NCBI GenBank assembly: GCA_024640025.1
Contig: JAHEFT010000005.1
Location: forward strand, 1-49,548
Direction: 5' to 3'
Origin: Chromatiales bacterium
GTDB lineage: Bacteria > Pseudomonadota > Gammaproteobacteria > Xanthomonadales > SZUA-36
DNA: 49,548 nt
The notes beneath the pieces were generated by a model. The model did not search any database and was not told the DNA's origin. It worked only from the letters and a program-made list of their open reading frames with translations. Positions within the stretch are counted from its first letter, which is position 1; each line of letters begins with the position of its first letter. The translations under genes were made by a program, and so were the position numbers. Positions 1 through 45,339 of the stretch are shown one piece after another.

Positions 1-637
1 TGGGAATGCCCTTGGCGCCCAGCACAGAGGCCATCCGCCACGACTCGCCAATATCTTCGAAGTCTCCCTGCCCACTGGGCAGCAGGACCATGCGCTTCCG
101 CAGCTGATCCAGTTGCGGGCCCTCCAGCCCGGGCAGGAAATGCAATGGCGATGCAAAATAGAAGTTCTGGATGAATCGTCCTTCCAGGTACTTTGAGAGG
201 TCGTAGGTGCCGCTCATGGCAATTGCCAGCCTGAAAGCATCCGGGTGCCGGCAAATCGTTGCGACGGCATTGAACGCACCGATTGAAGCACCGGCTGCGA
301 CGATTTCGATGTCCGGGCTCTCGCAATCCTTTCGAATGGCTGGAACGATTTCCCGGTAAACCAGGGCGTCGAACATATTTTGCAGATAGGAGCAGAACTC
401 AGCTGAATGCTCTTTCGAAATCCAGGCTCTGCCCGCGATTGAATCGGTGGAGTAAACCTTGATCCGCCCACTTTCGATCAGGGGCGCCAGAGCTCCGATC
501 AGGTGAAAACGTTCGACCTCCTCGGCGTCGCCGCCGGCCGTCGGGAACAGCAGCACCGGCGTTCCGAATGTGCCCCAGCGAACCAGCTGTATTTCCTGCT
601 CCACATGGGGGGAATACCATTTGAAGACCTGCTTCAA
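1..637 (-). CDS. Esterase-family alpha/beta hydrolase, 3' end beyond window
   Basis: Last visible gene of the minus-strand ATP-grasp operon; about 212 codons are present and the C-terminus lies outside the window. The N-terminus (KQVFKWYSPHVEQEIQL, then PVLLFPTAGGD at residues 27-37) and the nucleophile elbow GASIG (residues 116-120, Ser118) fit the putative esterase family (alpha/beta fold, COG4947-like). The distal acid and His are not visible. The best start is a TTG at 635-637 whose last two bases lie inside the TGA stop of the upstream ATP-grasp gene (TTGA, 4-base overlap), implying translational coupling; no ATG is available in this frame near the family N-terminus. A GTG eleven codons downstream is possible but would delete the conserved KWYSP segment. 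There is no signal peptide, so it is probably cytoplasmic. The substrate is unknown; hydrolysis of an ester or amide product of the neighbouring ligases is an inference. Confidence 0.85.
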   Translation of the reverse strand, partial: MKQVFKWYSPHVEQEIQLVRWGTFGTPVLLFPTAGGDAEEVERFHLIGALAPLIESGRIKVYSTDSIAGRAWISKEHSAEFCSYLQNMFDALVYREIVPAIRKDCESPDIEIVAAGASIGAFNAVATICRHPDAFRLAIAMSGTYDLSKYLEGRFIQNFYFASPLHFLPGLEGPQLDQLRKRMVLLPSGQGDFEDIGESWRMASVLGAKGIP

Positions 638-1875
638 GCGCCCACCCCGTCTTTGCGGCGCCATTCCTGCACCCGGCTCCAGAACAGTTCCACGAAGGCC
701 TCGGTTTCATGCGGCGGATACAGCGCTGCGACTTTTTCACCGATCGCACCATGCACGATGTCGGTGGCGAAAAACCCGTTGGCCACTTCGTCGAGGTGCG
801 GCAAATGCGTGGCGCAGAAGGATTCGAACTCGTCCACGTTGAAGTGCCCGCTGGCCAGACTGACGTACCCGGCCATTTTTTCCTCAAAAGGAATGTCCTG
901 GTCGGCGATCGCGAAGTATTCCTGCCAGTCGAGGTTGGTTTTCATCGAACGGCCGGTCGCTGCGCAGAAAATGGACCAGCGCAGGTTGGCTTTGATCAGC
1001 CATGGAAAATGAAAGTGGAGCGAAGTCACCTGCGAGTCAGGGCAGGCGTTCGCGAAATCGATCGGGTACCAGGTGCCGTCCTGGCGCAGGGCTTCACAGG
1101 AATTGAAGTCCCAGCCGAAAAACGCGTTGATCACCATGGTCATGTTCCGCAATTGCTGTTCCTGGTCTGTCGGCAGGAAATCCTGGTCCATGCGATAACG
1201 GTCATGCAGGGGCGCACCCGGATCGTAGTTGACGTAGCGGAACTGGGGCCCCAAACCGATGCAGCGCACGAAGGCGTCATGCGGCTCAACCCCTTTTTGC
1301 AGGTTCATTACCCGGGTGCCGCTGCTTTCATACGCATTGAGCAGTTCCTGGCGGTTCTTGATGCCGGTCACGCCGACCCAGGCGCCGCCATCGTAGGGTT
1401 TCATGTAGAGCGGGTAGCCGATATTGTCACCGATACCCCCCAGGTCAAACAGCTTGGCGTAACGGGTCAGGGTCGGCTGCAGATCGTTCGACTCCGCGTA
1501 CCGCTTGGGCGGGATCATCCAGGTTTCCGGTACCGGAAAGCCCAGGCGGCTCATGGCTGCATAAGTGGTCTGCTTCTCCATCGACTGCAGCGACCAGGGA
1601 TTGTTGAATACGTAGAGGTCATTCACCAGAATCTTGGTTTTGATCCACTCCCTCGAGGTGTGATACCAATGCGTCAGGCGGTCGATGACCACATCATAAG
1701 AGCAGTCCTGCAGGAGGCCGAACGGTTCGATGTTGACCCGTTCCGATTCGATGCGCACGGTGTCTCCGCCGATTGACAGCTTGAGGTCGAGCTGTTTGAG
1801 AAGCGCCTCGTAGCAAATGGGCCAACAGATGTCGGCGCCGAGAGACAAGCCAATTTTCCGGGTGATTTCAGCCAC
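634..1875 (-). CDS. ATP-grasp domain ligase (second of two in operon)
   Basis: 413-residue cytoplasmic protein beginning with GTG, preceded by a good Shine-Dalgarno (GAGGAA). An N-terminal pre-ATP-grasp region (about 1-95) is followed by an ATP-grasp fold: YMKPYDGGAWVGV at 157-169 supplies the nucleotide-binding Lys and Gly-rich loop, and E261 with the PIDFANACPD segment (271-280) looks like the acidic/Asn metal site. ATP-grasp enzymes activate a carboxylate as acyl-phosphate and join it to an amine, thiol or other nucleophile. The protein is clearly different in sequence from the other ATP-grasp in the operon, so the two probably carry out separate ligations. It is separated by 68 bases from the upstream esterase gene and overlaps the downstream esterase start by 4 bases. 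Substrates cannot be read from the sequence. The ligase fold is confident, the reaction unknown. Confidence 0.88.
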   Translation of the reverse strand: MAEITRKIGLSLGADICWPICYEALLKQLDLKLSIGGDTVRIESERVNIEPFGLLQDCSYDVVIDRLTHWYHTSREWIKTKILVNDLYVFNNPWSLQSMEKQTTYAAMSRLGFPVPETWMIPPKRYAESNDLQPTLTRYAKLFDLGGIGDNIGYPLYMKPYDGGAWVGVTGIKNRQELLNAYESSGTRVMNLQKGVEPHDAFVRCIGLGPQFRYVNYDPGAPLHDRYRMDQDFLPTDQEQQLRNMTMVINAFFGWDFNSCEALRQDGTWYPIDFANACPDSQVTSLHFHFPWLIKANLRWSIFCAATGRSMKTNLDWQEYFAIADQDIPFEEKMAGYVSLASGHFNVDEFESFCATHLPHLDEVANGFFATDIVHGAIGEKVAALYPPHETEAFVELFWSRVQEWRRKDGVGA

Positions 1876-1943
1876 TGTAATTCCTCGATCTGCGGGTTAA
1901 CCATCATACGGCCTTCCCCTGTTCTGAGCCAAGTGCGTGGTGT

Positions 1944-3080
1944 TTACTCGTAAACCATCCAAAGCGGCCCCGGGAACAGCCAGGTGAGACCGTTGCGCAG
2001 GCGATCCCGCCAGTTTTCCCAGTTATGGGCGTCGCGGGCTTCCTCGAAGTTGACCTGCATACCCTGGGCTTGCAGCAGGGGCACCATCGAACGGTTTTCA
2101 TAAATCAGCGACTCATAGATTCCACAACTTACGTAGATTTTTTCCGCCAGGGCAAATGGCTTCTTGCGGTATTCATTGACAAAGCGCACCACCGGATCGA
2201 ACACCGGACCTTTCTGGTGCTGGCCCAGGTCGCTGAAGGCAAACGAACCGGACTGAAGCAACAACTGGCCAAACAGGTCAGGATATTTGCTGGCCGCGTG
2301 CAGCGAAGCTACTCCACCAAGGCTGGCGCCCATCAAACCCCTGGCATTGTTATTGTCCACCAGGGGAAGTTTTTCCGACAATGCCGGCACGAGTTCCTCT
2401 CCGATGAAACGGGCATGCCGTGGGTCGCCCGTGTACTCAACCAACCGGTCTGGCGATTGCGTCAGGGCGACGATCATCGCCGGGATCTCCAGCCGGTGAA
2501 TCAGGTTGTCCAGCACGGTCTTGAGATCGGCGTAGCGCAGGTAGTCCGGCCCATCGTGCACCACCAGCAGGGGGTAACTGCGGCTGCGCCTGAACCGTGC
2601 CGGCAGGTAAACCTGGACTTCACGACGGTCGTCGAAGGCCTTGCTGTCTACCTGCAGACTGGTCAGAGAGCCAGTGCGGGCTTCGGGGTCATGCAAGGTC
2701 CAGCGGGGGCGCTTATAGCCATAACCCTGGCACACCGAGTTGGCGCCGAAAGGATCGTGCGCCTGCACCTCGTTGAATTCATCCAGGACCAGGTCACGCC
2801 CGCCGCCGCGAACGACTTCGAACTTGTATTCAAACCGGGATTTGCCGGGCAATTCCATGGTCAACGCCCAGAGGTCGGTTCCTTCCAGCCGCTGCATCGG
2901 CAATGACGTGTTGAATCCTGAAATCCACCGGCGCAAATGCACTTCATCTGCCTGGCCGCGATAAACGAAGGTCACCTGTCCGGGCTGGACCAGGGGGAAC
3001 CGGTGAGTGCTGATAAAGTCGTCCACCGCCCCGGCCAAAGGGACTCCATCGCGAAACAGTTTTTCGATCTGTGGGTTCAC
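1944..3080 (-). CDS. Fes-like esterase (E-set N-domain plus alpha/beta hydrolase)
   Basis: 378 residues from a GTG start at 3078-3080 that overlaps the TGA stop of the S51-like gene (GTGA, 4 bases). An upstream in-frame start near 3194 would give a longer, unlike-family N-terminus inside the S51 gene and is less likely. Residues about 35-115 look like a CBM48/E-set Ig-like domain (VTFVYRG, FEYKFEV), as in enterochelin esterases. The catalytic part has VVHDGPDYL (173-181), a GASLGG nucleophile elbow (251-256, Ser253), CGIYESL (319-325) as the probable acid region and DAHNWENW (350-357, His352). Fes-type enzymes cleave ester bonds of siderophores, but the same fold is common in other esterases and no siderophore genes are nearby. 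With no signal peptide it should be cytosolic. Its place between two ligases suggests it processes or releases a ligation product (inference). Confidence 0.87.
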   Translation of the reverse strand: MNPQIEKLFRDGVPLAGAVDDFISTHRFPLVQPGQVTFVYRGQADEVHLRRWISGFNTSLPMQRLEGTDLWALTMELPGKSRFEYKFEVVRGGGRDLVLDEFNEVQAHDPFGANSVCQGYGYKRPRWTLHDPEARTGSLTSLQVDSKAFDDRREVQVYLPARFRRSRSYPLLVVHDGPDYLRYADLKTVLDNLIHRLEIPAMIVALTQSPDRLVEYTGDPRHARFIGEELVPALSEKLPLVDNNNARGLMGASLGGVASLHAASKYPDLFGQLLLQSGSFAFSDLGQHQKGPVFDPVVRFVNEYRKKPFALAEKIYVSCGIYESLIYENRSMVPLLQAQGMQVNFEEARDAHNWENWRDRLRNGLTWLFPGPLWMVYE

Positions 3081-4006
3081 CGCGACACCAGGGCCTTTTT
3101 CTGTCCCGTTCTCGTCAACACGAAAGACCGGGCCGAGAGAACCACCCGGGCATCCTGCAGGGTAATCATGGCGCCATTGTCCAGGGTGCAACAACTTGCC
3201 GGCGCAAAACGCCGACTGAACAGGGCAAGCCGCTCGCGGTTGCCCCAGTCGATTCGGGTCCTGGCATGCGGCAGAAGGACCCGTTGGCGGACAACGCCAA
3301 GGCCCACGTCCAGTACTTCCGCATCGTTTTTGCCTTGTGGCGCCTTCTGGTGGAACAGCACAATCCGTTCACTCAGGGCCATCGCACCGGCCGACCAGGC
3401 GATCACCGGTTTTTGGGCCAGCAACCCGGCCAGGCCAAACAGCCGGATACGATTCAGCAGCACGGCGACATGCCCGCCGGCAATCAGCACGAGCCCGGCC
3501 CCTTTGACCATGCAGTGAACCTCCTCCCGCTGCGCCATCGCCAGCGGAATGTTCATCGCGGACCGGCGCAGGTCGAAATCCCGGTGAATCGCCATGATTC
3601 TGCGAAGGTGATGCCGGTCCAGCGCGCGAATCTGGGAAATTGCCGCGCGCTGCTCCAGCAAAAGCAGGTCCGGATCGGCTTTCGCACGCATCAACCGCCG
3701 TGCGGCCGCCAGGGTCGGCAACAGCCGAATCCGGTAAAGCCCCTGCAGTTCACGCAGCCTGTCCTGCCGCTCCCGCTTGAGTGCCCGCAAATCCGGTTCA
3801 CTGGCAAAAACTTCTTCAGCTCGCTGGTAGAGCGAAAGGTCTTCGACTGGACGGCCAACATCCTCGCGCAATTCTTCAATCTCACCCTCGGAATCGCGCC
3901 ATCCTGCCGTGATGACCACTATCGGGCCGTCAAAGTCGACTGAATCCACGGCCTGCCTTAAGTTGGGGGCCGGTCGTTGCGGACCGAGGAGTATCTGCAG
4001 AGACAT
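3077..4006 (-). CDS. S51 peptidase / cyanophycinase-like amidohydrolase
   Basis: 309-residue cytoplasmic protein with an ATG start 3 bases downstream of the preceding ATP-grasp stop. The N-terminal strand region (PIVVITAGW, 28-36) leads into a long charged helical stretch (about 40-150), then AGGHVAVL (176-183) and the nucleophile elbow VIAWSAGAMAL (201-211, Ser205). A PHARTRID segment (His247) and LDNGAM (275-280) follow in the order seen in dipeptidase E and cyanophycinases, which use a Ser-His-acid triad in a class-I glutamine-amidotransferase-like fold. The long helical insertion is unusual for classical dipeptidase E. In known systems this family cleaves Asp-X or isoaspartyl-type bonds such as those in cyanophycin. 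Here, beside two ATP-grasp ligases, a role in hydrolysing an amide-linked product or removing a protecting residue is plausible. Fold fairly sure, substrate unknown. Confidence 0.78.
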   Translation of the reverse strand: MSLQILLGPQRPAPNLRQAVDSVDFDGPIVVITAGWRDSEGEIEELREDVGRPVEDLSLYQRAEEVFASEPDLRALKRERQDRLRELQGLYRIRLLPTLAAARRLMRAKADPDLLLLEQRAAISQIRALDRHHLRRIMAIHRDFDLRRSAMNIPLAMAQREEVHCMVKGAGLVLIAGGHVAVLLNRIRLFGLAGLLAQKPVIAWSAGAMALSERIVLFHQKAPQGKNDAEVLDVGLGVVRQRVLLPHARTRIDWGNRERLALFSRRFAPASCCTLDNGAMITLQDARVVLSARSFVLTRTGQKKALVSR

Positions 4007-4009
4007 GGC

Positions 4010-5245
4010 TCAGGCCAACTCCACGTGAACCAGGCCCACAATTTGCTGCAGGGCTTCTTCGACCACGTCGGAATCACCGTCCCGGATGATCACGTAGCCC
4101 TCGCCTTCATAGCTGTCTGAAGCAAACTGCCCGGCAGACGGAAGCCGTGACTCGACCACCAGGTGGCCAAACCGGCGCTGGGCTTCGTCCAGGCCATGAA
4201 TCTGGCGAACCCGTGTCCCTCCCGCGGCGCTTTTTTGTCCGCGAAAATAGGCGGCTCCCACGGCATGCTTCCTCGGTGGCGGGTCAAATTCGTCAAATAC
4301 CATCAGCCGGGGCCACGCCTGGTAAAAATCAAAGTCATGAGCCCAGGACAGCAGGCTGGTGATCTGCGCGCCCGGCGGCCGCGCGCCCACTTCGGAAATG
4401 GCGATCCGCTGATGGCCCAACTGGAACCACTCCATGTGGCTCAGGCCAGTCTGCAGTCCAAGCGCCTCGACTGCCCTGAAACCCGCTTCGCGGATCGGAG
4501 CATACTCCTCGCCGCTCACATCACGGGGCAGAAAGACACACCACTGGATCCACGGATTCTCCAACACCTGCAGCGGCGCGGGCATGTATCGGGAAATGGA
4601 ATGCCAGGCCGGCTTGCCCTTGACCATGACACTGTCGAACGAGTGCTCGGTGCCGGACACGAACTCCTCCAGCAGGGTCGGTTCGCCGGCAGAGGGCGCA
4701 TAGTGCTGCAGCAGGTTCGTAAGGTCCTGCCCCGAATCGAGCCGGTACGTGCCTTTGCCCCCTGCCCCTGCCGGCGGTTTGGCCACCAGGGGAAAGCCGA
4801 CTTCCACGGCGAAAGCGCGCGCCTGTTCGGCATTTTCGGCCAGCACGTGGCGGGCGCAGGGAAGCCCCGCGGTGCGCAGCACGTCCTTCATCCGGGCTTT
4901 ATCCCTGAAATTCAGTGCGGATTGGACGTCGAGACCCTCAATCCCGAGGACTTCCCGCGCACGGGCCAACGGAACCTGCAACTGCTCCAGGGCGCCCAGC
5001 AGGCGCACCGGCGGTCCGAGTTGTCCGGCCAGCGCACGCGCCGCAGCGACCAGCTGCCCGGCATCCAGCGCATTTTCCACGCGCCAGTGTGCCGCCAGGG
5101 ATGAACGCAGGCCCGGCGGCAGTTTTTCAGCCGGATCCTGGCTCACAAGGCTCAGGTTGACGCCCGGCAGATTCGCGGCTCCGGCGACAAAACGAAGCGT
5201 TGTCTCCATGAAAAAAGGTGCTACAAAAATGACGTGGATGCTCAT
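4010..5245 (-). CDS. ATP-grasp domain ligase (first gene of operon)
   Basis: 411 residues from the ATG at 5243-5245 (MSIHVIFVAP); another ATG six codons upstream is possible, and neither has a strong Shine-Dalgarno. A Rossmann-like pre-ATP-grasp domain (1-110) starts with the strand IHVIFVAP and ends at LNFRDKARMK, where carbamoyl-phosphate-synthetase/biotin-carboxylase-type ATP-grasp domains usually begin. The ATP-binding loop is VAKPPAGAGGKGT (154-166); LLEEFVSGTEHSFD (191-204) and the metal-binding SEVGARPPG (284-292) are classical. The C-terminal lid region ends with GEGYVIIRDGDSDVV. This architecture activates carboxylates for amide or peptide ligation. It is the first gene of a five-gene minus-strand operon and is separated by only 37 bases from the yehS-like stop codon upstream, so it could also be co-transcribed with that gene. 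Confidence 0.9.
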   Translation of the reverse strand: MSIHVIFVAPFFMETTLRFVAGAANLPGVNLSLVSQDPAEKLPPGLRSSLAAHWRVENALDAGQLVAAARALAGQLGPPVRLLGALEQLQVPLARAREVLGIEGLDVQSALNFRDKARMKDVLRTAGLPCARHVLAENAEQARAFAVEVGFPLVAKPPAGAGGKGTYRLDSGQDLTNLLQHYAPSAGEPTLLEEFVSGTEHSFDSVMVKGKPAWHSISRYMPAPLQVLENPWIQWCVFLPRDVSGEEYAPIREAGFRAVEALGLQTGLSHMEWFQLGHQRIAISEVGARPPGAQITSLLSWAHDFDFYQAWPRLMVFDEFDPPPRKHAVGAAYFRGQKSAAGGTRVRQIHGLDEAQRRFGHLVVESRLPSAGQFASDSYEGEGYVIIRDGDSDVVEEALQQIVGLVHVELA

Positions 5246-5282: not shown

Positions 5283-5756
5283 TTATTTTTTGATATCCGG
5301 CTCGACCTGCTGGTATTGAAGGCCTTTCAGGAAGCCGCGCAGCGCCTGGTCTTTGCATTCGCGATAATGTTTGTGGCCCGGCCGGCGGAAGAACGCACTC
5401 AGCTCGTGTTTGCTCAACCTGAGATCTGCACGCTGCATGATTTCGAGGACATCGTCAGCTTGCAGGTCCAGGGCAATCTTCAGTTTCCTGAAAACCAGGT
5501 TGTTATTCAGTCGTTCTTCCGTTACCGGTTGCGCGCCTTCCTTCCTGCCGCGCTTCTCGATGATCATGCCATTCAGAAAAGCCGCGAACTCCGTATCAAG
5601 GATGGCCTTGAAGGCTGGATCGTCCTCTCTCTTCAGCCAGTCGCTGATTTCCGCCCGGGTTACCGTTCGATCGCCCAGGCCAAAAATCTCAATCATTTTT
5701 GAGTCATCGAAATCAAAAATAAAGCGGATTCGGCGTAAAACATCATTGTTTCTCAT
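5283..5756 (-). CDS. yehS: DUF1456 (YehS-like) protein
   Basis: 157-residue soluble protein containing two similar DUF1456 halves. Each half has an N-terminal helix pair (NNDVLRRIRFIFDF near residue 3; NNNLVFRKLKIALDL near 85) followed by a degenerate winged-helix-like part ending in a short Arg/Lys-rich helix (SDWLKRED; SAFFRRPGHKHYREC). The length and the NGMIIEKRGRKEG linker match E. coli YehS. The start at ATG 5754-5756 (MRNNDVL) fits the family; an ATG three codons upstream is also in frame. The molecular function of this family is not established; regulation or RNA/DNA binding has been suggested only from fold. It lies 37 bases upstream of the ATP-grasp operon on the same strand and diverges from the BNR gene across a 158-base gap, so the promoter for the ligase operon may sit upstream of this gene. 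Confidence 0.9.
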   Translation of the reverse strand: MRNNDVLRRIRFIFDFDDSKMIEIFGLGDRTVTRAEISDWLKREDDPAFKAILDTEFAAFLNGMIIEKRGRKEGAQPVTEERLNNNLVFRKLKIALDLQADDVLEIMQRADLRLSKHELSAFFRRPGHKHYRECKDQALRGFLKGLQYQQVEPDIKK

Positions 5757-5914
5757 ATGGCCCACATCATACTGTATCTGGCGCAGAGAACCTCAGCCAT
5801 GAGCAACGGAAAAATAACCGCAAACCCGGTGGCCTGTGGACTGGACTTCTGCAAGATGTTCCTTCGAATGATCGGTTAAACTGCTTTCATTCCAGATTAA
5901 ACCGGAGAATAGAG

Positions 5915-21468: not shown

Positions 21469-23925
21469 TCATGCTTTTATCCGTTCCATTTCAGCATCAT
21501 AGAGTGGCTTGAGTGATACTTTTACCGGATAGATCCTGCCTGCAATATCCACTTCCCAGCGCCCCTTCTCCAGGTATTCGGCATCGACCGGATCGCCCTC
21601 GATCATGCCCAACCCGACCGCGCCACCCAACGTATGCCCGTAGGAAGCTGACCGGATATCACCGACCGGGATTCCGTCCCGCAGAATCACTTCAGCGTGG
21701 AACATCAGGGGCTCCGGGTCCTTGACCAGCACCTGGACCAATCGTTTTTGCCAAGGGCCGGAAGCGCTTTTTCGGCGGCATGCTTCCTTGCCGATGAAAT
21801 TACGCTCCTTTTTCAGGTTCACGGCAAAACCCAACCCCACCTCAAAAGGATCATCGGTATTGTCGATATCGTGGCCATAATCACGATAGCCCTTTTCCAG
21901 GCGCAGGCTGGCCAGGGCCTTGAGGCCTGCATGGCGCAATCCGAAATTCTTTCCCGCCTCCATCACCAGGTCGTAAACATGCATCGCCTGTTCCGCCGGA
22001 ATATTGAGTTCATAACCCAGTTCGCCCACGTAGGTGATGCGAACGCAGATGACGCGGGCCAGGCCAATGTCAATTTCCCGGACAGCACGGAACGGGAATG
22101 CCTCGTTGGATAAGTCACTGGTGGTGATGGACTGCAACAGCTCCCGGGATTTGGGACCCTGGATGTTCAACTGCCCGTATGCGGATGTCACGTCCGTGAC
22201 GAAAACGTGCTGATCATCGCCCGTGTTTCTCCGGAGCCAGGTCTCGGTGTGGCGGTGTGCCGTGTCCGAGGTGACCACCATGAATTTTTCATCGTCAAAC
22301 TTGATGACGGTGAGGTCGGCCTCCAGTTTTCCAGCCGGGTTCAGCCACTGGGTATAGGTAATTTTCCCGGCATCGCCATCCACGTCATTGGCCGAAACCG
22401 TGTTCAACAATTTGCCGGCATCCCGCCCCTGCACCAGGAATTTGCCCATGAAGGACATGTCCATCACGATCACGCCTTCGCGGCATGCCTCGTGCTCGGC
22501 TGCCCACCAGGGAAACCAGTTCGCCCTGCCCCAGGTGAGTCCGTCCGGTTCCGGATCCTGTCCCGGCGGTGCATACCAGCCTGGCGATTCCCAACCACTC
22601 ACATCCCTGAAGTGCGCACCCTGCGCCGCCAGGCGATCGTGAAACGGTGACTTCTTTGCGCCCCTGGCGGTTTTCGGAGACCGGTCGGGGTAGTGGCACT
22701 GGTACACCAGGCCGAGCGACTCCAGGGCGCGTTTTCGACGATACTCCGGGTTGCATTGATAGGGGTGGAAACGATCGATATTCATACCCGTGACATCAAC
22801 ATCCGGCGAGCCGTTCAGCATCCAGTGTGCGACCACCCTGCCCAGGCCGCCGCCGGTGATGATGCCGACGGAATTCAACCCGGCCGCCACGAAATAATTT
22901 TTAAGCTCCGGCGCTTCCCCGACGATCGGACTCAGATCCGGCGTGAAACTCTCCGGGCCGCAGAAAAACTTCCGGATGCCGGTTTCCATGGTCACCGGGA
23001 TTCTGCTCATGGCCTGTTCGAGGAAGGGCGTCAGGCGGTCCCAGTCGGGTGGTATCTCGGTGAAGGAACTGTCCCCGGGTATGCCTTGCACATTCCAGGG
23101 CCTGCAGTCCGGCTCGAACAGGCCGATCATCAGCCCGCCCCGTTCTTCACGGTAATAGGCGTGCAGTGACGGATCCTCGAGGATCGGCAGGTCTTTCGGC
23201 ACGCCCGGAATTTCATCCGTAATCAGGTAATAATGCTCCGCCGCCTGGTTGGGGATGGAAACACCGGACATCTCACCCAGTTGCCTGGCCCACATGCCGG
23301 AGCAATTCACCACGAATTCAGAGCGGACATCCCCCTGGTCTGTACGCACCCCGGTGACCGCGCCGCGGTGGGCCAGCACACCCCTCACCGGCATGTTCTG
23401 CAGGATCCTGACGCCCTTCATTCGGGCTCCTTTTGCCAGCGCCATGGTGACGTCGACCGGGTTGATGCGGCCGTCCGACGCGGTGTAAAAGCCGGCCAGG
23501 ACATTATCCGTGCTGGCCAACGGAAAAAGGTCCTTCACTTCCGATGGTGAAAGTTCAACCACATCATTGCCGTGGCGCCGGTTAAATGCGGTGACCCGCC
23601 GGTATTCCTCAACCCGGTCAGGATCAGCCGCGACTTCGATGAAACCCACCGGATTGAAACCGGTAGCCTGACCGGTTTCCTGCTCGAGCCTGGCATAGAG
23701 GTCGCGGGAGTAGCGGCGGATTTCAAGCGATGTTTCTGAAGTAGCCCCATAGGTCGTCATCAAACCGGCTGCATGCCAGGTGGTTCCTGATGTGAGCTGG
23801 TCCCGTTCGAGAAGCACCACGTCGGTACAGCCCATGTCCGCAAGGTGGTAGGCAACGGAACAACCGATGATTCCGCCTCCGATGACCACGACCCTCGCGC
23901 TTTCCGGTAGCCCTGTTTTTGGCAT
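21469..23925 (-). CDS. FAD/GcvT-domain dimethylglycine/sarcosine dehydrogenase-like
   Basis: 818 residues with the domain order of dimethylglycine and sarcosine dehydrogenases. A DAO-type FAD domain comes first (VVVIGGGIIGCSVAYHLADM, 12-31), with SGTTWHAAGLM (46-56), whose His51 is the covalent-FAD site in the animal enzymes. An FAO-type central domain follows (GFNPVG, WARQLGEMSGV, ITGGGLGRVVAHWM). Next is a GcvT-like tetrahydrofolate-binding domain (about 430-700; VMDMSFMGKFLVQGRDA, YTQWLNPAGK, LGYELNIPAEQAM, LRLEKGYRDYGHDI), then a GcvT C-terminal barrel (720-815). Such enzymes oxidatively demethylate N-methylglycines and pass the one-carbon unit to folate. No signal peptide: cytoplasmic. 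Divergent from a TonB receptor across 226 bases. With the Rieske/OYE pair 13 kb away it hints at methylated-amine catabolism, but the exact substrate is not shown. Confidence 0.92.
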   Translation of the reverse strand: MPKTGLPESARVVVIGGGIIGCSVAYHLADMGCTDVVLLERDQLTSGTTWHAAGLMTTYGATSETSLEIRRYSRDLYARLEQETGQATGFNPVGFIEVAADPDRVEEYRRVTAFNRRHGNDVVELSPSEVKDLFPLASTDNVLAGFYTASDGRINPVDVTMALAKGARMKGVRILQNMPVRGVLAHRGAVTGVRTDQGDVRSEFVVNCSGMWARQLGEMSGVSIPNQAAEHYYLITDEIPGVPKDLPILEDPSLHAYYREERGGLMIGLFEPDCRPWNVQGIPGDSSFTEIPPDWDRLTPFLEQAMSRIPVTMETGIRKFFCGPESFTPDLSPIVGEAPELKNYFVAAGLNSVGIITGGGLGRVVAHWMLNGSPDVDVTGMNIDRFHPYQCNPEYRRKRALESLGLVYQCHYPDRSPKTARGAKKSPFHDRLAAQGAHFRDVSGWESPGWYAPPGQDPEPDGLTWGRANWFPWWAAEHEACREGVIVMDMSFMGKFLVQGRDAGKLLNTVSANDVDGDAGKITYTQWLNPAGKLEADLTVIKFDDEKFMVVTSDTAHRHTETWLRRNTGDDQHVFVTDVTSAYGQLNIQGPKSRELLQSITTSDLSNEAFPFRAVREIDIGLARVICVRITYVGELGYELNIPAEQAMHVYDLVMEAGKNFGLRHAGLKALASLRLEKGYRDYGHDIDNTDDPFEVGLGFAVNLKKERNFIGKEACRRKSASGPWQKRLVQVLVKDPEPLMFHAEVILRDGIPVGDIRSASYGHTLGGAVGLGMIEGDPVDAEYLEKGRWEVDIAGRIYPVKVSLKPLYDAEMERIKA

Positions 23926-24151
23926 GAGTATTCACATTCGCAGATTGGAATCTCCGTATTTAAGCACAGATTTTTTTGAAGTTGATTGCTCCAGATCGCT
24001 TGGTGCTTGCGATATTCATTTACCCCGGAACATCCGTCAGCCAATGCATGCCGTTAATGGACATACTAAAAGTTGGTGTATGATCCAGTCTTGGGCAGCG
24101 ACCCGCCAAAAGGTCGCTTCATCTTCGCATGCATCTGTGGGAGTGTTTGTC

Positions 24152-26659
24152 GTGGTGAAAAAAATCAGAAATAAAATTATATTTGGCCTGGCTGTTTCGA
24201 TTTTCATGTCGCCCGCCTTTGGGCAGGAATCGGACACCATCGAAGAAGTCATCGTGATGGCCACCAAGCGGGAGCAAACCCTGCAGGAAGTGCCGCTGGC
24301 GGTGAGCGTGGTGGATTCAAGGACCATCGAGCAGGCGCAGATCAACGACATGGTCGACTTGCAGGGCCTGGTGCCTTCACTGCGTGTGACCCAGTTGCAG
24401 ACGACGGGCAACACGAATTTCGTGATCCGTGGTTTTGGCAACGGTGCGAATAATCCGGGCATCGAGCCTTCGGTGGGTGTTTTTGTCGACGGCGTTTACC
24501 GTTCAAGATCGTCTGCCGCACTGGCCGACCTGCCCAACCTGGAACGCATTGAAGTGCTGCGCGGGCCGCAAAGCACCCTGTTCGGCAAGAACGCCTCAGC
24601 AGGCGTCATCAATATCGTCACTGCCGCGCCCGATATGGATGCTTTAGGCGGACACGCGTCGGTCACTTACGGTAACTATAACCTGCTCATTCTCAAGGGT
24701 GACATCAGCGGTCCCATTTCCGACACCGTCGGTTTCAGCCTGTCGGTAGCCTCCAATAACAGGGACGGCTATTTCAGAAATCTTGAAACGGGCACAGAGT
24801 TGAATGAGCGGGACCGCTGGGGCGTGCGCGGCCAGTTGCTGTTTTTACCGACGGATGACATCACGCTGCGCCTGATCGCGGATTACGACAAGATCGACGA
24901 AAAATGCTGCGGCGTGGCCAACCTGTTGGACGGTCCGACCGGCCTTGCCATTCGGGCGGTTGGCGGCGACCTGGTCCCGAACGACGGCTTCGCCTACAAA
25001 AACTACTACGATTTTGATCCCACCAACAAGATCGAGAATAAAGGCGTGTCACTGCAGGCTGACTTCAATTTTGAAAACGACATGCTGCTGACTTCAATCA
25101 CCTCCTATCGGAAACTTTCCCGCGAGGACAATGTAGACGTCGACTTCACCAGTGCGGAACTGGTTGGCCTGAATTCCGGAGATACCGGCATCGACACGTT
25201 TACCCAGGAACTGCGATTGAGCCAGAGCATGGATTCCGTGGACTGGATGCTTGGCGCCTTCTACTTCGATGAAGATGTGACTTACAACAACGTCGTGACC
25301 TACGACGCCGCGATGAATCCGTTCGGCAATATCCTTTCCTTCGGAGGCTTGAACGGCCTGCAGCAACTTCTGGAGGCACAGGGCCAACTGCCGCCGGGCG
25401 TCACTTTTCTGGGCGCCGGACAGGGCGCCTGGGACTATACCGGGCAGGATGACAAGACGACGTCACTGTTCGGGCAGGCGGACTGGCACGTGACGGACCG
25501 GTGGACGCTGACCGGCGGGCTCAACTACACCAAGGTCAAAAAGAACGCTTATGTCAACCAGGTCAATAGCGATGTTTTTTCATCGATCAGTATGGTCGAG
25601 GTCGGTTTCGCCGGCATTTTCAGCCAGCTGACGGGATTGCCGCCGACCCCGGAAAACATTGCCGCCAATCCACAGGCGGCGGCGATTGCCGGGGGATTAA
25701 GCGTGACTCCATGCACAGCCGAGACACGTCCAGCTTGCAACGAGGCCCTGGGTTTGCAGGTGTTGCAACTGCTGCCTCCCTTCGTGGACTTTCCAAACTC
25801 GGTCGAGCCGGGTAAGTCAAATGACGACAAGATTACCTGGACAGCTGTCGCCGCCTACCAGTGGACCGACAATATCAACGTCTACGCCCGCGCCGGCACC
25901 GGCTTCAAGGCCACCTCCTGGAACCTCAGCCGTGATTCACGCCCGTTTGCAGAAGACATCCCGGCGCTGTTGCAGGCCGGCCTGGGCGTACCGAACCTGA
26001 GACCGGGCACGCGCTACGCCGGCCCCGAGGACTCTACCACCTACGAACTGGGATTCAAGGGCGGCTGGAGCACAGCGAGCCTTAACGTGGCAATCTTCGA
26101 CCAGGAGATCAAGGGTTTCCAATCCAACATTTTCACCGGCACGGGTTTTATCCTCGCAAACGCGGGCAAGCAGTCGACCAAGGGTATTGAAGTCGACGCC
26201 ATGTGGCTGCCGACCGATTCGTTGAGGCTTACATTTGCCAGTACCTGGCTGGATCCGAAGTACGATTCCTTCCCGCTGGGTGAAGGCCCGGACGGGCCGG
26301 TGGACCTCTCGGGTACTACCCCGGCTGGAATCCACAAGATCACCATCGACACGGCTGCGACTTACTATTTCCAGCTCGGATCCGCCGAGGCTTTCGTCCG
26401 GGGCGAGTACCTTTACGCGGATAAGGTCCAGGTGGTGGAGAATGTGCCGGCGGAAATTGCCTCTGCGAAAATCAGCACGTTTAACGCCAGCCTGGGATTT
26501 GGCTGGAGTAACGGACTCGAGCTGATTTTCTGGGGGCGTAACATTTTCAACGATGAATGGTTATTGTCCGCCTTCCCATCGGTTGCACAGCCCGGAAGCT
26601 ACAATGGCTATCCCAACCAGCCGGCGACCTACGGTGTGACGCTCAGGGCGAGCTTCTGA
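24152..26659 (+). CDS. TonB-dependent outer-membrane receptor 1
   Basis: 835 residues from GTG 24152, chosen because GGGAG (24139-24143) precedes it at the right distance and it opens a signal peptide (MVKKIRNKIIFGLAVSIFMS, cleavage near AFGQ). Upstream in-frame sequence lacks such features. A TonB-box-like DTIEEVIVMATKRE (28-41) leads into the plug (VPLAVSVVD, LQGLVPSLRV, FVIRGFGNG, RIEVLRGPQSTLFGKNASAG). A 22-strand barrel follows, ending in the typical terminal strand TYGVTLRASF. Such receptors import large or scarce ligands using TonB energy. The ligand is unknown; no sugar- or siderophore-specific neighbours are evident. The gene diverges from the dimethylglycine-dehydrogenase-like gene, so a shared regulatory region (23926-24151) is possible. 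It ends before a strong hairpin terminator. Confidence 0.93.
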   Translation: MVKKIRNKIIFGLAVSIFMSPAFGQESDTIEEVIVMATKREQTLQEVPLAVSVVDSRTIEQAQINDMVDLQGLVPSLRVTQLQTTGNTNFVIRGFGNGANNPGIEPSVGVFVDGVYRSRSSAALADLPNLERIEVLRGPQSTLFGKNASAGVINIVTAAPDMDALGGHASVTYGNYNLLILKGDISGPISDTVGFSLSVASNNRDGYFRNLETGTELNERDRWGVRGQLLFLPTDDITLRLIADYDKIDEKCCGVANLLDGPTGLAIRAVGGDLVPNDGFAYKNYYDFDPTNKIENKGVSLQADFNFENDMLLTSITSYRKLSREDNVDVDFTSAELVGLNSGDTGIDTFTQELRLSQSMDSVDWMLGAFYFDEDVTYNNVVTYDAAMNPFGNILSFGGLNGLQQLLEAQGQLPPGVTFLGAGQGAWDYTGQDDKTTSLFGQADWHVTDRWTLTGGLNYTKVKKNAYVNQVNSDVFSSISMVEVGFAGIFSQLTGLPPTPENIAANPQAAAIAGGLSVTPCTAETRPACNEALGLQVLQLLPPFVDFPNSVEPGKSNDDKITWTAVAAYQWTDNINVYARAGTGFKATSWNLSRDSRPFAEDIPALLQAGLGVPNLRPGTRYAGPEDSTTYELGFKGGWSTASLNVAIFDQEIKGFQSNIFTGTGFILANAGKQSTKGIEVDAMWLPTDSLRLTFASTWLDPKYDSFPLGEGPDGPVDLSGTTPAGIHKITIDTAATYYFQLGSAEAFVRGEYLYADKVQVVENVPAEIASAKISTFNASLGFGWSNGLELIFWGRNIFNDEWLLSAFPSVAQPGSYNGYPNQPATYGVTLRASF

Positions 26660-29304: not shown

Positions 29305-29394
29305 AAGGGACTACGATTCAGCAGGTGACATGTTTTCTGCTCTCTTGTGTGAGCGACGGCTTGATGTGCTTTGAACAAACCAACGAGGGAAATT

Positions 29395-31530
29395 GTGGCT
29401 GCTCAACGACCATTTTACTACCGGATATTTTTCTATTGGCTGACCGCCCGGCCCTGGATTTCGATTCTGTTCCTGGCGCTCATCTCAGGTCAAGCGACAT
29501 CGCTGATAGCGGCCGAAGCGCAGGAACCTTCTCCCCCTCTCTACGAAATTGAGGTTCGCCAGGCCCGGGTCACCATGCCGGACGGCGTCACCATGGCGGT
29601 GGAAATGTATGTGCCTGCGGGTGGAGCAAAAGACGAACGCTTCCCGGTTCTGCTCGAATACCACCCTTACCGTGTCACGACATACCGCGGAAGCCGGTTT
29701 CCTACATACTCCTACTTCGTACAACGCGGTTACATCGTGGTGGCCGCCGATGAACGCGGAAGCGGCAACAGCGAGGGCGTCCTCGGCCCTCATGCCTACT
29801 CGGACCAGGCCCTGGCGGATGGCGAAGTGCTGATCGACTGGCTGTCAAAACAACCCTGGTCGAATGGCAATGTCGCCATGTTCGGAATCTCCTACAGCGG
29901 TTTCATCGCCATCCAGATGGCGATGCGCCAGCCCCCGGCGCTGAAGACGATCCTGGCGATCGATTCCACCGAGTACCTGTACGCCGAGGACTCGTACTTT
30001 ATCGACGGCATCCTTCACCTGGATTCCTACGAAATGATGATGGATGTGGACAATTCGCGTCCCGGCGCACCGGACTATGTTATCGACGAAGCCTATTTTC
30101 GTGACAGGTTCGACCAGCCGCCCTATACGCTGGCCAATAAACGCCACCAGCGCGACGGACCCTACTGGGACCGTGTATCACTGAAGGACCGCTATGAACT
30201 GCTCAGGATTCCGAGCTTCCATATCGGCGGCTGGTACGACGGCTACCGCAACAGCCTGCCGCGCATGCTCGAGCACCTGGATGCTCCGGTGAAAGCCATT
30301 ATCGGTCCTTGGATTCACACCACTCCGGACGACCCCTACCCGGAACCCGGGATCGAGTGGCGCCGCGAGGCGGTGCGTTGGTTCGACCAATGGCTGAAGG
30401 GCCGCGACACCGGCATCCTGGAGGAACCGGACTTTGCCGTATTCGTGCGAAACTGGCATCCGCCAGGGCCTTACCTGGCGGAAGTGGCGGGCGAATGGCG
30501 CTGGGAAGACGGCTGGCCCATCGCGCGAATTCACCAGCAGAGCCTGTACCTGGGTAGGAATCACCAACTGCACGACGAGCCGGTGCAGCCGGTGGAGCAC
30601 CTATTGCGCAATGTACCAACGGCGGGCATGGAAGCGGGTGGACCCAACAGCTGGTGGGGTGAAGTGGCGCATGATCAGCGGCCGACCGATGCCTACAGCC
30701 TGGTCTACGACAGCGAGGTGCTTGAAAGCGACCTGGAAATACTGGGCCGGCCGCTGGCTCATCTTCGGGTTGCAGCTGACGCGCCACGCGCGGACTGGTT
30801 CGTAAGGGTGTCCGATGTCGCGCCGGACGGATCAGTGACTTTGGTCACCGGCGCCGGCTTCAACGGAACGCACCGCGAATCCGCACGCGAGCCGTCCGAC
30901 ATCACGCCCGGCGAAACATTTGAAATTAAACCGGAGCTGCATTTCACTTCCTGGGTGTTTCCAGCCGGTCATCGCATTCGGGTTTCGATCAGCAATGCGC
31001 AGTGGCCGATGTACTGGCCGACCGCCTACCCGGTGACCACTTCTCTATTCCTCGGCGGCGAGACAGGTTCACATATCGACCTGCCGGTCGTCCCCTACGA
31101 AAAACGCCCGTCGCCATCTTTCGAACCGCCGGCGGTCAATCCCGAAGCCCCCGGCTTTTCACATTTCGATATTGCCGGAACCAGTTCAGGCTATGGCGAG
31201 ATCTCAGAAGTGTCGCGTAACCCGCAAACGGCGGAAACAACCATCCGCGCCAACACCGAATACGGACAGAACCTGCCCTGGGGCACCGAGTACTACAAGG
31301 AACTCATCGAGTACCGGACCTCTGACGCGCATCCGGAAAACACGACGCAAACCGGCAAGCACAGCTTTCGCGTGGTGCTCGAGGGCCGCGAATTGCTCTG
31401 GGAAGGCGATACACAGCTGCGCAGCGACCGGAATAACTTTTACTACGAGTACGTGCGACGGCTGAGCGAAAACGGTGAATTGCTGCGTGAAAAAACCTGG
31501 ATGGAGACGATTCCGCGGGATTATCAGTGA
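29395..31530 (+). CDS. CocE/NonD-family exported hydrolase
   Basis: 711 residues from GTG 29395, which has GAGGG five bases upstream; a TTG eight codons earlier is the alternative. The N-terminus (1-40) is a signal peptide or anchor (WISILFLALISGQATSLIAA). The alpha/beta-hydrolase core has PVLLEYHPYR (84-93), DERGSGNSEG (119-128) and the nucleophile elbow FGISYSGFI (163-171, Ser166), with the lid and acid/His in HIGGWYDGY and GPWIHTTP. The C-terminal jelly-roll typical of the X-Pro dipeptidyl-peptidase/cocaine-esterase family follows (about 460-700). Such enzymes hydrolyse acyl esters, beta-lactam acyl chains or X-Pro peptides. The second TonB receptor lies 123 bases downstream on the same strand, a common pairing of exported hydrolase and uptake receptor. 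Confidence 0.92.
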   Translation: MAAQRPFYYRIFFYWLTARPWISILFLALISGQATSLIAAEAQEPSPPLYEIEVRQARVTMPDGVTMAVEMYVPAGGAKDERFPVLLEYHPYRVTTYRGSRFPTYSYFVQRGYIVVAADERGSGNSEGVLGPHAYSDQALADGEVLIDWLSKQPWSNGNVAMFGISYSGFIAIQMAMRQPPALKTILAIDSTEYLYAEDSYFIDGILHLDSYEMMMDVDNSRPGAPDYVIDEAYFRDRFDQPPYTLANKRHQRDGPYWDRVSLKDRYELLRIPSFHIGGWYDGYRNSLPRMLEHLDAPVKAIIGPWIHTTPDDPYPEPGIEWRREAVRWFDQWLKGRDTGILEEPDFAVFVRNWHPPGPYLAEVAGEWRWEDGWPIARIHQQSLYLGRNHQLHDEPVQPVEHLLRNVPTAGMEAGGPNSWWGEVAHDQRPTDAYSLVYDSEVLESDLEILGRPLAHLRVAADAPRADWFVRVSDVAPDGSVTLVTGAGFNGTHRESAREPSDITPGETFEIKPELHFTSWVFPAGHRIRVSISNAQWPMYWPTAYPVTTSLFLGGETGSHIDLPVVPYEKRPSPSFEPPAVNPEAPGFSHFDIAGTSSGYGEISEVSRNPQTAETTIRANTEYGQNLPWGTEYYKELIEYRTSDAHPENTTQTGKHSFRVVLEGRELLWEGDTQLRSDRNNFYYEYVRRLSENGELLREKTWMETIPRDYQ

Positions 31531-31653
31531 CCACTATTTTTTTTGCCGGGAGCAATAACTTTTATAGACATTTCTGAATCACGGATATATGCTCGCGAAG
31601 TTAGCAATTTTTTAACAAAACCTGCATCCCGGATGCACTTATTGGAGACACCA

Positions 31654-41806: not shown

Positions 41807-41847
41807 AGTGGATGTTTCAGTTTCGCATCAGCGACCAGGAGCCAGCG

Positions 41848-44800: not shown

Positions 44801-45339
44801 TAAAAACCGTTGTCGGTTCGGCAACCTTCCTGTATGAATCCTGCTCTACCGGCACCATGGTTTATCAACTGCCCGGCCGCAAGGGCCGCTTCAAACTGGA
44901 GCGGCTGTCCCGGGTCATGGGCGCCAATTGCGGGGACTTCCTTGGCCCGCCGCCTACCCCCGAGGCCTCTGAAAGTGGATCCTGGTACAACCCCTCGCAG
45001 GACGGGCACGGCTTCGTGATCGAAGTGCTGCTCAATGGCGACGTGCTGGCCTACTGGTATACCTACGATCAGAACGGCAACCAGGCCTGGGTATTCGGTG
45101 TGGGTGTCATTGAAAACGGCGAGTTGGTGATTCCCGAAGCCTTCCGGACACGGGGGCCGGCTTTTGGACCTGATTTCAATCCGGACGATCTTGAATTGAT
45201 TCCCTGGGGAGAAATGCGGTTTGATTTGTCCTGCAATGCCGGAGAAATGAGTTATAACAGCACAGTCGCGGAATTCGGCGCGGACAATATCGATCTCGAA
45301 CGGCTCACAGCGCTCGCCGGGCTGGCTTGCGACAACTGA
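41848..45339 (+). CDS. Exported M14 zinc carboxypeptidase with two C-terminal repeats
   Basis: 1163 residues from ATG 41848 (AGGAG site); signal peptide 1-30. A helical N-terminal region (about 35-310), rich in Leu/Ala and possibly HEAT-like, precedes the peptidase. The M14 zinc site is GGIHAREW (His412, Glu415) and DVHSFSQ (His572), with the catalytic Glu in WGVEVEPS (Glu645 or Glu647). This matches the carboxypeptidase A family, here with a large propeptide-like N-terminus and long insertions. After a beta domain (about 700-900) come two copies of a domain of about 130 residues, starting AAWYDPDHEGEGFLIEILAG (Trp915) and SGSWYNPSQDGHGFVIEVLL (Trp1046). Each has a following WYTYDxxGxQAW-type core and conserved Cys pairs. 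These domains occur at the ends of exported proteins of Xanthomonadales-like bacteria and may bind the cell surface or substrate. The protein is periplasmic or secreted. Confidence 0.92.
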   Translation: MKLSTTFISALIGCFLLVNIPASSAIADSGEENTAWTGPNWDRDLALQAAARFDTSHEAEELLELVRNPAGAAALEALQQIDSRTDWPGPAREATLLQFTNKLRALAPFSIDSEVLDFLISHENQVLVAHEELPTVAVPLFPIRAAAMGLVHQWTRQQARSDAKELAASDPRQLVSLYAASKDPNIRAGIEDAADDVDRLTVKALLEIGMPLLASKPELTGLMGALALKTGDLNVMSRVLSQGAGAALVEVSRQASRRLSGADLDQLMLATIDQAPAATTALLAAEMARQGKDKRDGGNQLLEESERPEFGVTEAEADATIEYWTEQDGVLGLGYPVPLPVDTPLPFDGFRSYNGLHARHQGLMSTNSIVHGEVVGTTHNGREIWAYRIGDSDLLSRDGRLEPATLTNGGIHAREWQTPEVVTGIMELFVEKQGDHHFYDFLLDNVNMVLLPVQNVDGFVQTQRYPDQNWLRSDPFDPENDPQPSPRDGRMRRKNMPGVDEILTTFDDHLFGIDLNRNNPPLWSTNLNRSSPDSRSLVYHGAAPHSEPEAKALVAASELGPASQLRAFTDVHSFSQVFYFHRTSNQRLSRNTIDLLHTMADHNAALPDGSLYLFNTSPYVGIDQGFGMTNEYFTTSLGIPAWGVEVEPSQGQPGFPDNPPGCGADYGGLARNCHDGFILPESQIRRVREELARSFAAAYYQQAGPPSIAAVRFVDSATQAVVFEAEWDPAGEDHRELYVNQVQPLELGRDYTFWVAYDRPMRWREGGEVTRFPGQPSSTLDFFAGAFVGDSSLTSSQDDPRWVNVPGDAPGGYFRYRDDTLAVEFSFPRDETNLGLVTADRPVTLHNSTTNMTGQSLDSDPSTTISWAAGGWAGYEDDSGLANDNGGTDQTIQFTLSPNTQLAPFVVEPGSSAAWYDPDHEGEGFLIEILAGNRAVMYWFTFDETGEQAWYVANGEVRGNRLLFPQIIQTSGGGFGPGFDPDTVVKTVVGSATFLYESCSTGTMVYQLPGRKGRFKLERLSRVMGANCGDFLGPPPTPEASESGSWYNPSQDGHGFVIEVLLNGDVLAYWYTYDQNGNQAWVFGVGVIENGELVIPEAFRTRGPAFGPDFNPDDLELIPWGEMRFDLSCNAGEMSYNSTVAEFGADNIDLERLTALAGLACDN

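Follow-up and report, generated by a model that had tools for sequence, protein, structure and literature searches.

What do two divergent ATP-grasp ligases, two esterases and a peptidase-like protein do together in one bacterial operon? The question is raised by the window, i.e. the whole 49,548-nucleotide stretch of the Chromatiales bacterium contig JAHEFT010000005.1 that was analysed. Positions 1–5245 carry five genes on the minus strand, all intact save the last, which is cut by the contig end. GRASPa (4010–5245, minus strand; 411 aa, ATG start, beginning MSIHVIF; Pfam ATP-grasp, 2.9e-9) is separated by a 3-base gap (4007–4009) from a gene for an S51-like protein (3077–4006, minus strand; 309 aa; Pfam Peptidase_S51, 1.3e-8), which shares a GTGA overlap (3077–3080) with EST. 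EST (1944–3080, minus strand; GTG start) encodes a Fes-like alpha/beta-hydrolase esterase (Pfam Esterase, 2e-23) with an N-terminal Enterochelin_N-like domain. After a 68-base gap (1876–1943) follows GRASP2 (634–1875, minus strand; GTG start), a divergent ATP-grasp ligase, which is joined by a TTGA overlap (634–637) to ABH (1–637, minus strand; TTG start), a second alpha/beta-hydrolase esterase (Pfam Esterase, 1.1e-5). This layout had been described in an earlier note made from the sequence, and its coordinates and all four joins were reproduced.

The gene starts fall at matching residues in the nearest relative, L011. Between the five window genes and those of locus L018, protein identity is 70–82% and fourfold-degenerate sites are only 30–42% identical. 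The five genes are therefore not a product of chance, and the cluster genes are under purifying selection.

The contig stops inside ABH at position 1, after 212 codons, and the operon itself goes on. A second contig of the same genome, C150, shares 121 identical bases with the left end of the window, and ABH has 241 codons once the frame is joined. C150 carries the end of ABH, an S58 peptidase, GRASPb, GlgA, GRASPc and a BesA/PGM1-like ligase, with GlgA flanked by GRASPb and GRASPc. A putative second copy lies on a further contig, C72. Thus the operon, which the earlier note had taken to be a unit of five genes and two ligases, is really the terminal stretch of a larger cluster that counts five ATP-grasp ligases and includes a glycogen synthase. 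The cluster GlgA scores as an ADP-glucose glycogen synthase (TIGR02095, 530.6 bits; cut-off 328.45). The S58 peptidase (L098:224-1411) was considered as a conserved part and set aside, as only L098 matches among 99 loci (L011–L109, some overlapping).

The ligases

Among PDB sequences, the L-amino-acid ligases come closest to GRASPa and GRASPc. The best match of the GRASPa profile (A6) is the L-amino acid ligase 4wd3 (2e-29) and that of the GRASPc profile is again to L-amino-acid ligases (9.7e-23); profiles A6 and A8 match 4wd3, BL00235 (3vot) and BacD (3wnz) at 2e-29 to 2e-14. Residues K156, E272 and E285 and the R289-P-P-G motif are invariant in profile A6. The matches are only distant, however, and the cluster differs from these enzymes in having three paralogous clades at once, of about 28–37% mutual identity, which share one cluster with esterases and GlgA. 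GRASPa and GRASPc thus resemble L-amino-acid ligases, GRASPb does so by paralogy, and dipeptide formation is a putative activity.

No Pfam family is dedicated to GRASP2. The window protein shows a single Pfam match, to Dala_Dala_lig_C, at 14.5 bits and under the cut-off of 24; the same domain is matched by 24 of 43 GRASP2 rows at E ≤ 0.01. In the structural model (pLDDT 87.9) the nearest folds are RimK, LysX and ArgX (Z 16.1–19.3, with 13–16% identity in those rows), RimK superposing with Z 19.3 and an rmsd of 3.0 over 261 residues. Likeness to RimK is in fold only, since the window protein scores 15.5 bits against the rimK_fam cut-off of 143.4 (TIGR00768), and GRASP2 differs from these ligases by an added C-terminal helical part (residues ~317–410). 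The active-site residues K158, E260, D272 and N275 are kept in all 43 rows. A domain termed EAD7 was rejected as a feature of GRASP2, having been matched once, in one relative (1/43 rows). A search of a plasmid collection with GRASP2 gave no match.

The BesA-like gene is the last of the cluster. It is similar to BesA, the L-propargylglycine-L-glutamate ligase (8yi6, 1.1e-45), and to PGM1 peptide ligase, as it carries PGM1_C, but falls far under the cut-off of the NCBIfam BesA model NF042917 (164.5 bits vs 750) and is thus a homologue and not an equivalog.

Can known pathways account for these ligases? The earlier note recognized no pathway for the gene combination. The NCBIfam results give no housekeeping assignment for the two window ligases, as the profiles listed (for GRASPa the best 25 of 42) all score under their cut-offs. 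Its statement that there is no classic cyanophycin synthetase also holds: GRASPa, GRASPb and GRASPc reach only 32–39 bits vs CphA cut-offs of 850–877, which sets the cyanophycin system aside. No PADLOC match was found for eight cluster proteins at E ≤ 0.01, and anti-phage defence was set aside as well. The CP-ATP-grasp/alpha-E system was rejected on the absence of PF14403/PF04174 and Alpha-E from the Pfam tables of the scanned cluster proteins. CP_ATPgrasp/Alpha-E genes are present elsewhere in the genome (L100).

A partial literature search yielded no published description of the cluster. The 2009 survey of ATP-grasp amidoligases, reportedly the work of Iyer and colleagues, may already describe it. 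The passages of PMC2922099 and PMC8939145 that were matched by term do not mention the neighbourhood.

The esterases and the S51-like protein

EST is similar by sequence to the enterochelin esterase Fes (2b20, 5.2e-25) and to several CE1 feruloyl esterases; the Enterochelin_N match of its N-terminal domain (1.1e-5) is just under the Pfam cut-off. Its Ser251 and His350 are found in 34/34 rows. ABH keeps Ser118 in 35/35 rows and His224 in 34, the remaining one being gapped. In contrast to the siderophore setting of Fes, EST sits with ligases and GlgA. The NRPS condensation domain PF00668 was not found in the assembly, which is 82% complete (a control search was positive in 4 of 14 known genomes), and this bears out the absence of an NRPS remarked on earlier and argues against enterobactin-type siderophore release. 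The EST N-domain shows a weak co-linear match to the GlgB carbohydrate-binding module (hhalign P 0.0057, probability 6.5%; P 0.07–0.7 for four controls), and at E ≤ 0.01 CBM_20 is matched in 2/34 and CBM_48 in 1/34 EST rows. The likeness to the GlgB module is suggestive.

The S51-like protein belongs to the S51 fold class, with 35.2 bits for Pfam Peptidase_S51 (cut-off 23.9). Its profile has no significant match among PDB sequences; the fold search with the model (pLDDT 94.8) did give matches, the best being pseudo-CphB (7uqv, Z 17.4) and cyanophycinase (3en0, Z 16.6). The protein shares its fold (Z 14.3–17.4) and Ser motif with CphB and peptidase E, but differs from both by a helical insert of about 90 residues (positions 3560–3832, minus strand; residues ~59–149 in the secondary structure of the model) with helices 71–107 and 112–149; the insert had been described in the earlier note. 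The nucleophile Ser is kept in 25/27 rows. The position expected for the catalytic His, which we take from the spacing in CphB and PepE, is a His in 14/27 rows and is thus variable, with the window protein having both residues. The earlier assignment to cyanophycinase-type enzymes therefore stands for the fold and the nucleophile, but does not apply uniformly to the family.

Distribution of the cluster

Protein-against-DNA searches mapped 80 loci from seven named phyla, often with short flanks. The earlier note considered the five genes to be one coordinated set and proposed a neighbourhood search to decide it; the genes do stay together, in the same order in 7/7 relatives' loci, and all five are present in 5/7 (L012, on a short contig, has no GRASPa and L015 no ABH). 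In the 80-locus set EST is found in 75 of the 76 loci that extend far enough to show it; for ABH the figure is 70 of 77. Adjacency on one strand within 300 bases holds for EST and GRASP2 in 74/80 loci and for GRASP2 and ABH in 70/80. Across all 80 loci GRASP2 keeps 60–82% identity to the window copy, a high level for proteins from different phyla.

Optional genes were counted in the 32 loci whose flanks extend 9 kb or more in both directions: S51 in 27, GRASPc in 26, GRASPb in 21, GRASPa in 20, GlgA in 17 (including L086, at only 26% identity), any glycogen gene in 20 (L086 again weak) and a BesA-like or GCS2 ligase in 13. EST-GRASP2-ABH is therefore a near-constant core. Recurrent additions to it are the S51-like protein, GRASPa, GRASPb, GRASPc, a BesA-like or GCS2 ligase and glycogen genes. 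Some loci consist of the S51/EST/GRASP2/ABH core alone, and GRASPc was not found at E ≤ 1e-30 in 8/13 core-type genomes, though MAGs may be incomplete. Boseongicola aestuarii CECT 8489 has a reduced version with EST, GRASP2, ABH and GRASPc. No transporter, carrier or precursor gene was noticed in passing as a recurrent neighbour.

GlgA was seen close to the cluster in three phyla only, Pseudomonadota, Planctomycetota and Myxococcota, with a single 26% match in Acidobacteriota. In 29 loci, drawn from three phyla, GlgA and GRASPc are same-strand neighbours within 300 bases of each other (L029 having a short GlgA fragment), and other glycogen genes (GlgB, GlgC and GlgP among those considered) adjoin the cluster in some loci. 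GlgA was not seen in the loci of Actinomycetota (5/5), Eiseniibacteriota (2/2) and Gemmatimonadota (2/2), where flanks are often short; GlgB occurs in two Eiseniibacteriota loci and one of Gemmatimonadota. The glucan link of the cluster is thus not universal.

The common occurrence of ATP-grasp, esterase and S51 domains raises the question of whether unrelated housekeeping or catabolic genes are adjacent here by chance. Order and adjacency, however, are kept across the seven named phyla with correlated divergence (pairwise distances among eight families, r 0.55–0.94). In addition, strong GRASP2 matches occur in only 8/299 genomes of the order, and all eight are among the 11 with GRASPc (E ≤ 1e-30). 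Chance adjacency is refuted unless most loci represent contamination.

What the cluster may make

The proposal we favour, at about an even chance, is that this conserved ATP-grasp cluster builds an amide-linked, peptide-like compound without an NRPS or carrier, that the esterases act on ester links and that synthesis is coordinated with an alpha-glucan, to which the compound is perhaps attached. Each stand-alone ligase would activate a carboxylate as an acyl phosphate and couple it to an amine. GRASPa, GRASPc and GRASPb would act as joiners of the L-amino-acid-ligase type and GRASP2 as a ligase of RimK-like fold; a further link, possibly of the gamma-glutamyl type, might come from the BesA/PGM1-like ligase, or in other lineages from a GCS2 ligase. 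EST and ABH might form ester links, transfer them or hydrolyse them; trimming or regulation might fall to the S51-like protein. The compound would be made together with an alpha-1,4-glucan or ester-attached to it, and this part is proposed because GlgA lies inside the cluster and glycogen genes are neighbours. The gene set and its conservation, the folds, the intact active sites of ligases and esterases and the GlgA linkage in three phyla are observed; from there we infer the peptide chemistry, the substrates and the order of steps, and also glucan attachment, which is the weakest step. The earlier note had likewise read the operon as making and trimming an amide- or ester-linked product; the polymer that it named as one option is conjectural. 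The more specific form, in which the ligases build an amino-acid or peptide group that decorates glycogen, or the alpha-glucan of the cluster GlgA, through an ester bond, and EST (through its N-domain) and ABH attach and remove it, is unlikely. The cluster shares a GlgA above the TIGR02095 cut-off with bacterial glycogen synthesis (GlgA, GlgB, GlgC, GlgP), other genes of which are nearby in some loci; we know of no ATP-grasp amino-acid ligases in glycogen operons.

It is possible, if on the whole doubtful, that the product is a small peptide in free form, serving as a signal, redox buffer or compatible solute; the glycogen genes would then be co-induced neighbours and the esterases would act on the free compound. 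GCS2-type ligases do adjoin the core where GlgA was not seen, in the five Actinomycetota loci and in Granulosicoccus; genome G645, outside the 80 loci, has the order YbdK-EST-GRASP2-ABH-GRASPc and no GlgA within 19.9 kb, and the BesA-like ligase is related to an enzyme that forms a gamma-glutamyl dipeptide. The recurrent GlgA-GRASPc adjacency argues against this reading, however, as does GCS2-CBS, which is found alongside GlgA in Myxococcota, and in our judgement two esterases are a poor fit for a plain peptide.

The esterases are equally unexpected if the ligases tag proteins by amide bonds, an improbable reading in which GRASP2 adds amino acids as RimK does, perhaps to a glycogen enzyme, and hydrolases remove the tag. 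RimK and LysX/ArgX are among the nearest GRASP2 folds and glycogen enzymes are nearby in many loci, but RimK-like folds serve small-molecule ligases too, GRASPa and GRASPc are nearest to ligases of free amino acids, and a conserved acceptor protein was not noticed. The graspetide ligase PsnB (7drm, Z 16.2) is also among the GRASP2 fold matches, which brings up a RiPP system with ATP-grasp enzymes that would cyclize a small, overlooked precursor peptide through lactams or lactones. This is very improbable: RimK ranks higher, and with joins of −4, 3, −4 and 68 bases the genes in the window are packed too tightly for a precursor gene to lie between them.

The preferred reading, a peptide-like compound coordinated with an alpha-glucan, has implications beyond this genome. 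The core is present in at least seven phyla and is accompanied by up to five ligases and, in three phyla, a glycogen synthase, which suggests that a compound still without a name is important to many, mostly uncultured, bacteria. B. aestuarii CECT 8489 is a named strain and lets part of the cluster be tested directly. To our knowledge, amino-acid modification of bacterial glycogen has not been looked for so far; if the glucan link is true, bacterial glycogen would carry such a modification.

The operon and its continuation

The five minus-strand genes at positions 1–5245 of the window are intact and form an operon with overlaps and gaps exactly as described in the earlier note. Pfam and profile matches identify an L-amino-acid-ligase-like ATP-grasp protein (GRASPa), an S51-like protein, a Fes-like esterase (EST), a divergent ATP-grasp protein (GRASP2) and a second esterase (ABH), whose gene is truncated because the contig stops at window position 1. 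A DUF1456 protein (1.9e-53; 5283–5765) is encoded directly upstream on the same strand; it was not seen to recur beside the cluster in other loci. The window also has two TonB-dependent receptors and a zinc carboxypeptidase (23867–26659, 29371–34137, 41812–45339); the second receptor gene starts 12 bases past an S15 gene (X-Pro dipeptidyl-peptidase type), and together these genes suggest peptide use.

The remainder of ABH is on contig C150 of the same genome, whose first 121 bases are identical to the left end of the window in the correct orientation. The ABH frame continues across the join and stops after 241 codons. Past its end is an S58 peptidase (PF03576, 6.2e-116), found in the window's genome alone among the loci searched. 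Beyond it, GRASPb is on the opposite strand, followed by a glycogen synthase (GlgA), GRASPc and a BesA/PGM1-like ATP-grasp ligase; a RecQ-like gene, assigned by eye, lies downstream. The complete cluster thus has ten genes, five of which encode ATP-grasp ligases.

The GRASPb-GlgA-GRASPc-BesA-like half is duplicated on contig C72 of the same genome (L099:10464–16024), with a galactarate/altronate dehydratase-family gene (L099:3790–5346) about 5 kb away. On contig C101 there is a further GRASPb-like ligase, 53% to GRASPb (L100:8772–9989), about 5 kb from an Alpha-E and circularly permuted ATP-grasp pair (L100:1077–3457). Genome G005 (L107) has a counterpart of this ligase (50%), with an ABH-like esterase (40%) after it.

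Conservation, rarity and loss

Among 101 relatives searched, GRASP2 is present in seven genomes besides the window's own. Gene order is the same in all seven loci, and five have all five genes; L012 has no GRASPa, with only ~1.3 kb of contig remaining past S51, and L015 has no ABH. Compared with locus L018, the five window genes show 70–82% protein identity but only 30–42% identity at fourfold sites.

A scan of 84,980 species genomes with two seven-residue patterns confirmed 262 GRASP2 relatives, which is a lower bound. The best 80 were mapped, the other 182 being outside all locus counts; these 80 loci represent seven named phyla, with two loci lacking a phylum name, and some are near-copies (L029/L031, L027/L077, L083/L088). 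EST occurs in 75 of the 76 loci with room for it (mapping did not find it in L089), and ABH, counted anywhere in the locus, in 70 of 77 (not found by mapping in L025, L027, L028, L030, L076, L079 and L092; the ABH of L086 matches at 34% and is on the opposite strand, and that of L087 is upstream). Adjacency on the same strand within 300 bases holds for EST-GRASP2 in 74/80 loci and for GRASP2-ABH in 70/80. Where both flanks reach 9 kb or more (32 loci), S51 is present in 27, GRASPc in 26, GRASPb in 21, GRASPa in 20 and a BesA-like or GCS2 ligase in 13.

In two of the four Acidobacteriota loci a gene of ~1025 amino acids splits EST from GRASP2 (L074:6872–9952, L086:6861–9938). By eye it is a propeller sensor histidine kinase and, if so, hints at regulation by an outside signal. 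A GCS2-type ligase follows ABH in L057, L073, L075, L078, L081, L084, L091, L093, L094, L095 and L096, which are from Actinomycetota, Myxococcota and one Eiseniibacteriota. The one scanned (L057) carries CBS domains; it seems unusual for an amide ligase to bear such nucleotide-sensing domains.

Thirteen genomes of the core type (S51/EST/GRASP2/ABH) were searched for GRASPc at E ≤ 1e-30 along with the known positives L062 and L080. It was not found at this threshold in eight, which are MAGs (L031, L045, L060, L061, L067, L068, L070, L087), despite a short 39% match in L070 by protein mapping. Matches are strong in four (L055, L058, L089, L097), and that of L090, at only 2.6e-65, may be a paralogue. 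Genome G645, outside the 80 loci, has the order YbdK-EST-GRASP2-ABH-GRASPc, with none of GlgA, S51, GRASPa and GRASPb in 19.9 kb.

The cluster is rare: among 299 genomes of the order, 8 have strong GRASP2 matches, and another 18 have only short ones over the ATP-grasp core, with E above 1e-6. At E ≤ 1e-50, GRASP2 is found in 2 of 398 genomes of the phylum, counting the window's own. GRASPc (E ≤ 1e-30) is present in 11 of the 299, i.e. the eight with GRASP2 plus G003, G006 and G008. In G006 and G008 cluster pieces sit at contig ends (GRASPc and GlgA, in G008 also GRASPb and GRASPa), and GRASP2 may therefore be missing because of gaps in the assembly. G003, which belongs to the same genus as the window, has a frame-broken remnant on contig C53 (L101:9849–12128) where GRASPa-like pieces are fused into the GRASPc C-terminus. 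An intact BesA-like gene lies downstream, followed, by eye, by the genes that also lie downstream in the window's genome. In the simplest reading, this would be the scar of an internal deletion between paralogous ligases by which G003 lost the cluster.

Pairwise protein distances of eight families correlate across loci with r of 0.55–0.94, for rows without a stop and covering over 80% of the query, values that related sequences inflate. A GRASP2 tree built by a quick method has 10 phylum-label changes (minimum 6; shuffled mean 23.5), and it mostly clusters by phylum. Among the exceptions is a near-identical Gemmatimonadota/Eiseniibacteriota pair, which may represent transfer or misbinning.

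Folds and active sites

For the GRASP2 model (pLDDT 87.9), the closest fold is that of RimK (Z 19.3, rmsd 3.0, 261 residues); ArgX/LysX, synapsin, inositol-phosphate kinases and Ddl come next at Z 16–17, and rows at most 1 Z apart count as ties. K100, K158, R203, E260, D272 and N275 are invariant in 43/43 rows. The window GRASP2 has no Pfam match above cut-off; Dala_Dala_lig_C is hit at E ≤ 0.01 by 24 of the 43 rows (best 8.9e-6), a few of which may score above its cut-off.

The closest folds to the S51-like model (pLDDT 94.8) are those of pseudo-CphB, cyanophycinase and peptidase E (Z 14.3–17.4); unrelated rows follow at Z 9.5 or less. The nucleophile is Ser in 25 of 27 rows, with C and G in the other two. 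The position where a catalytic His is expected, judging by its spacing in known S51 enzymes, has H in 14 rows, D in 7, N and E in 2 each, and Q and R in 1 each; another His, His219, is kept in 25/27. In the window protein, the nucleophile and the expected catalytic position are Ser205 and His247. EST has Ser and His in 34/34 rows; ABH has Ser in 35/35 and His in 34/35, with one gap.

Glycogen genes and predicted function

Of the same 32 long-flanked loci, 17 have GlgA and 20 have any glycogen gene, L086 (GlgA only 26% identical) being the weak one in both counts. By arithmetic rather than a simulated control, one to three GlgA per 3–4 Mb would by chance place GlgA within a 21-kb stretch in ~0.5–2% of loci. 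GlgA and GRASPc are same-strand neighbours in 29 loci, of which 26 are from Pseudomonadota (in L029 a short GlgA fragment), 2 from Planctomycetota and 1 from Myxococcota. GlgA was seen near the cluster in only three of the seven phyla. It was not seen there in 5/5 Actinomycetota, 2/2 Eiseniibacteriota and 2/2 Gemmatimonadota loci, although GlgB occurs in 2/2 and 1/2 of the latter two groups, respectively; Acidobacteriota have a single 26% match.

The cluster-bound glycogen synthase exceeds the curated cut-off, and GlgB, GlgC or GlgP neighbour the cluster in several loci, which suggests alpha-glucan involvement. Cluster-type GlgA is also found in an ordinary glycogen gene group: G002, which is of the window's genus but lacks GRASP2, has a 64% identical GlgA together with GlgC and GlgB. 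The link may therefore be physical, as in a decorated glucan, or merely regulatory. The EST N-domain weakly resembles carbohydrate-binding modules, which leans towards a physical link without showing one.

No published account of this gene set was found in a partial literature search, which took in few subscription articles and did not include the 2009 survey of amidoligases. The combination appears undescribed; its component families are already known. The cluster is classed with stand-alone ATP-grasp ligase pathways, and a bolder reading, an ester-linked peptide or amino-acid decoration of glycogen, is less likely. As such a pathway, its L-amino-acid-ligase-like ligases (GRASPa and GRASPc by comparison with PDB, GRASPb by Pfam and NCBIfam only), together with RimK-like and BesA-like or GCS2 ligases, would form several different amide bonds in a carrier-free manner, and the two esterases imply ester links somewhere in the pathway.
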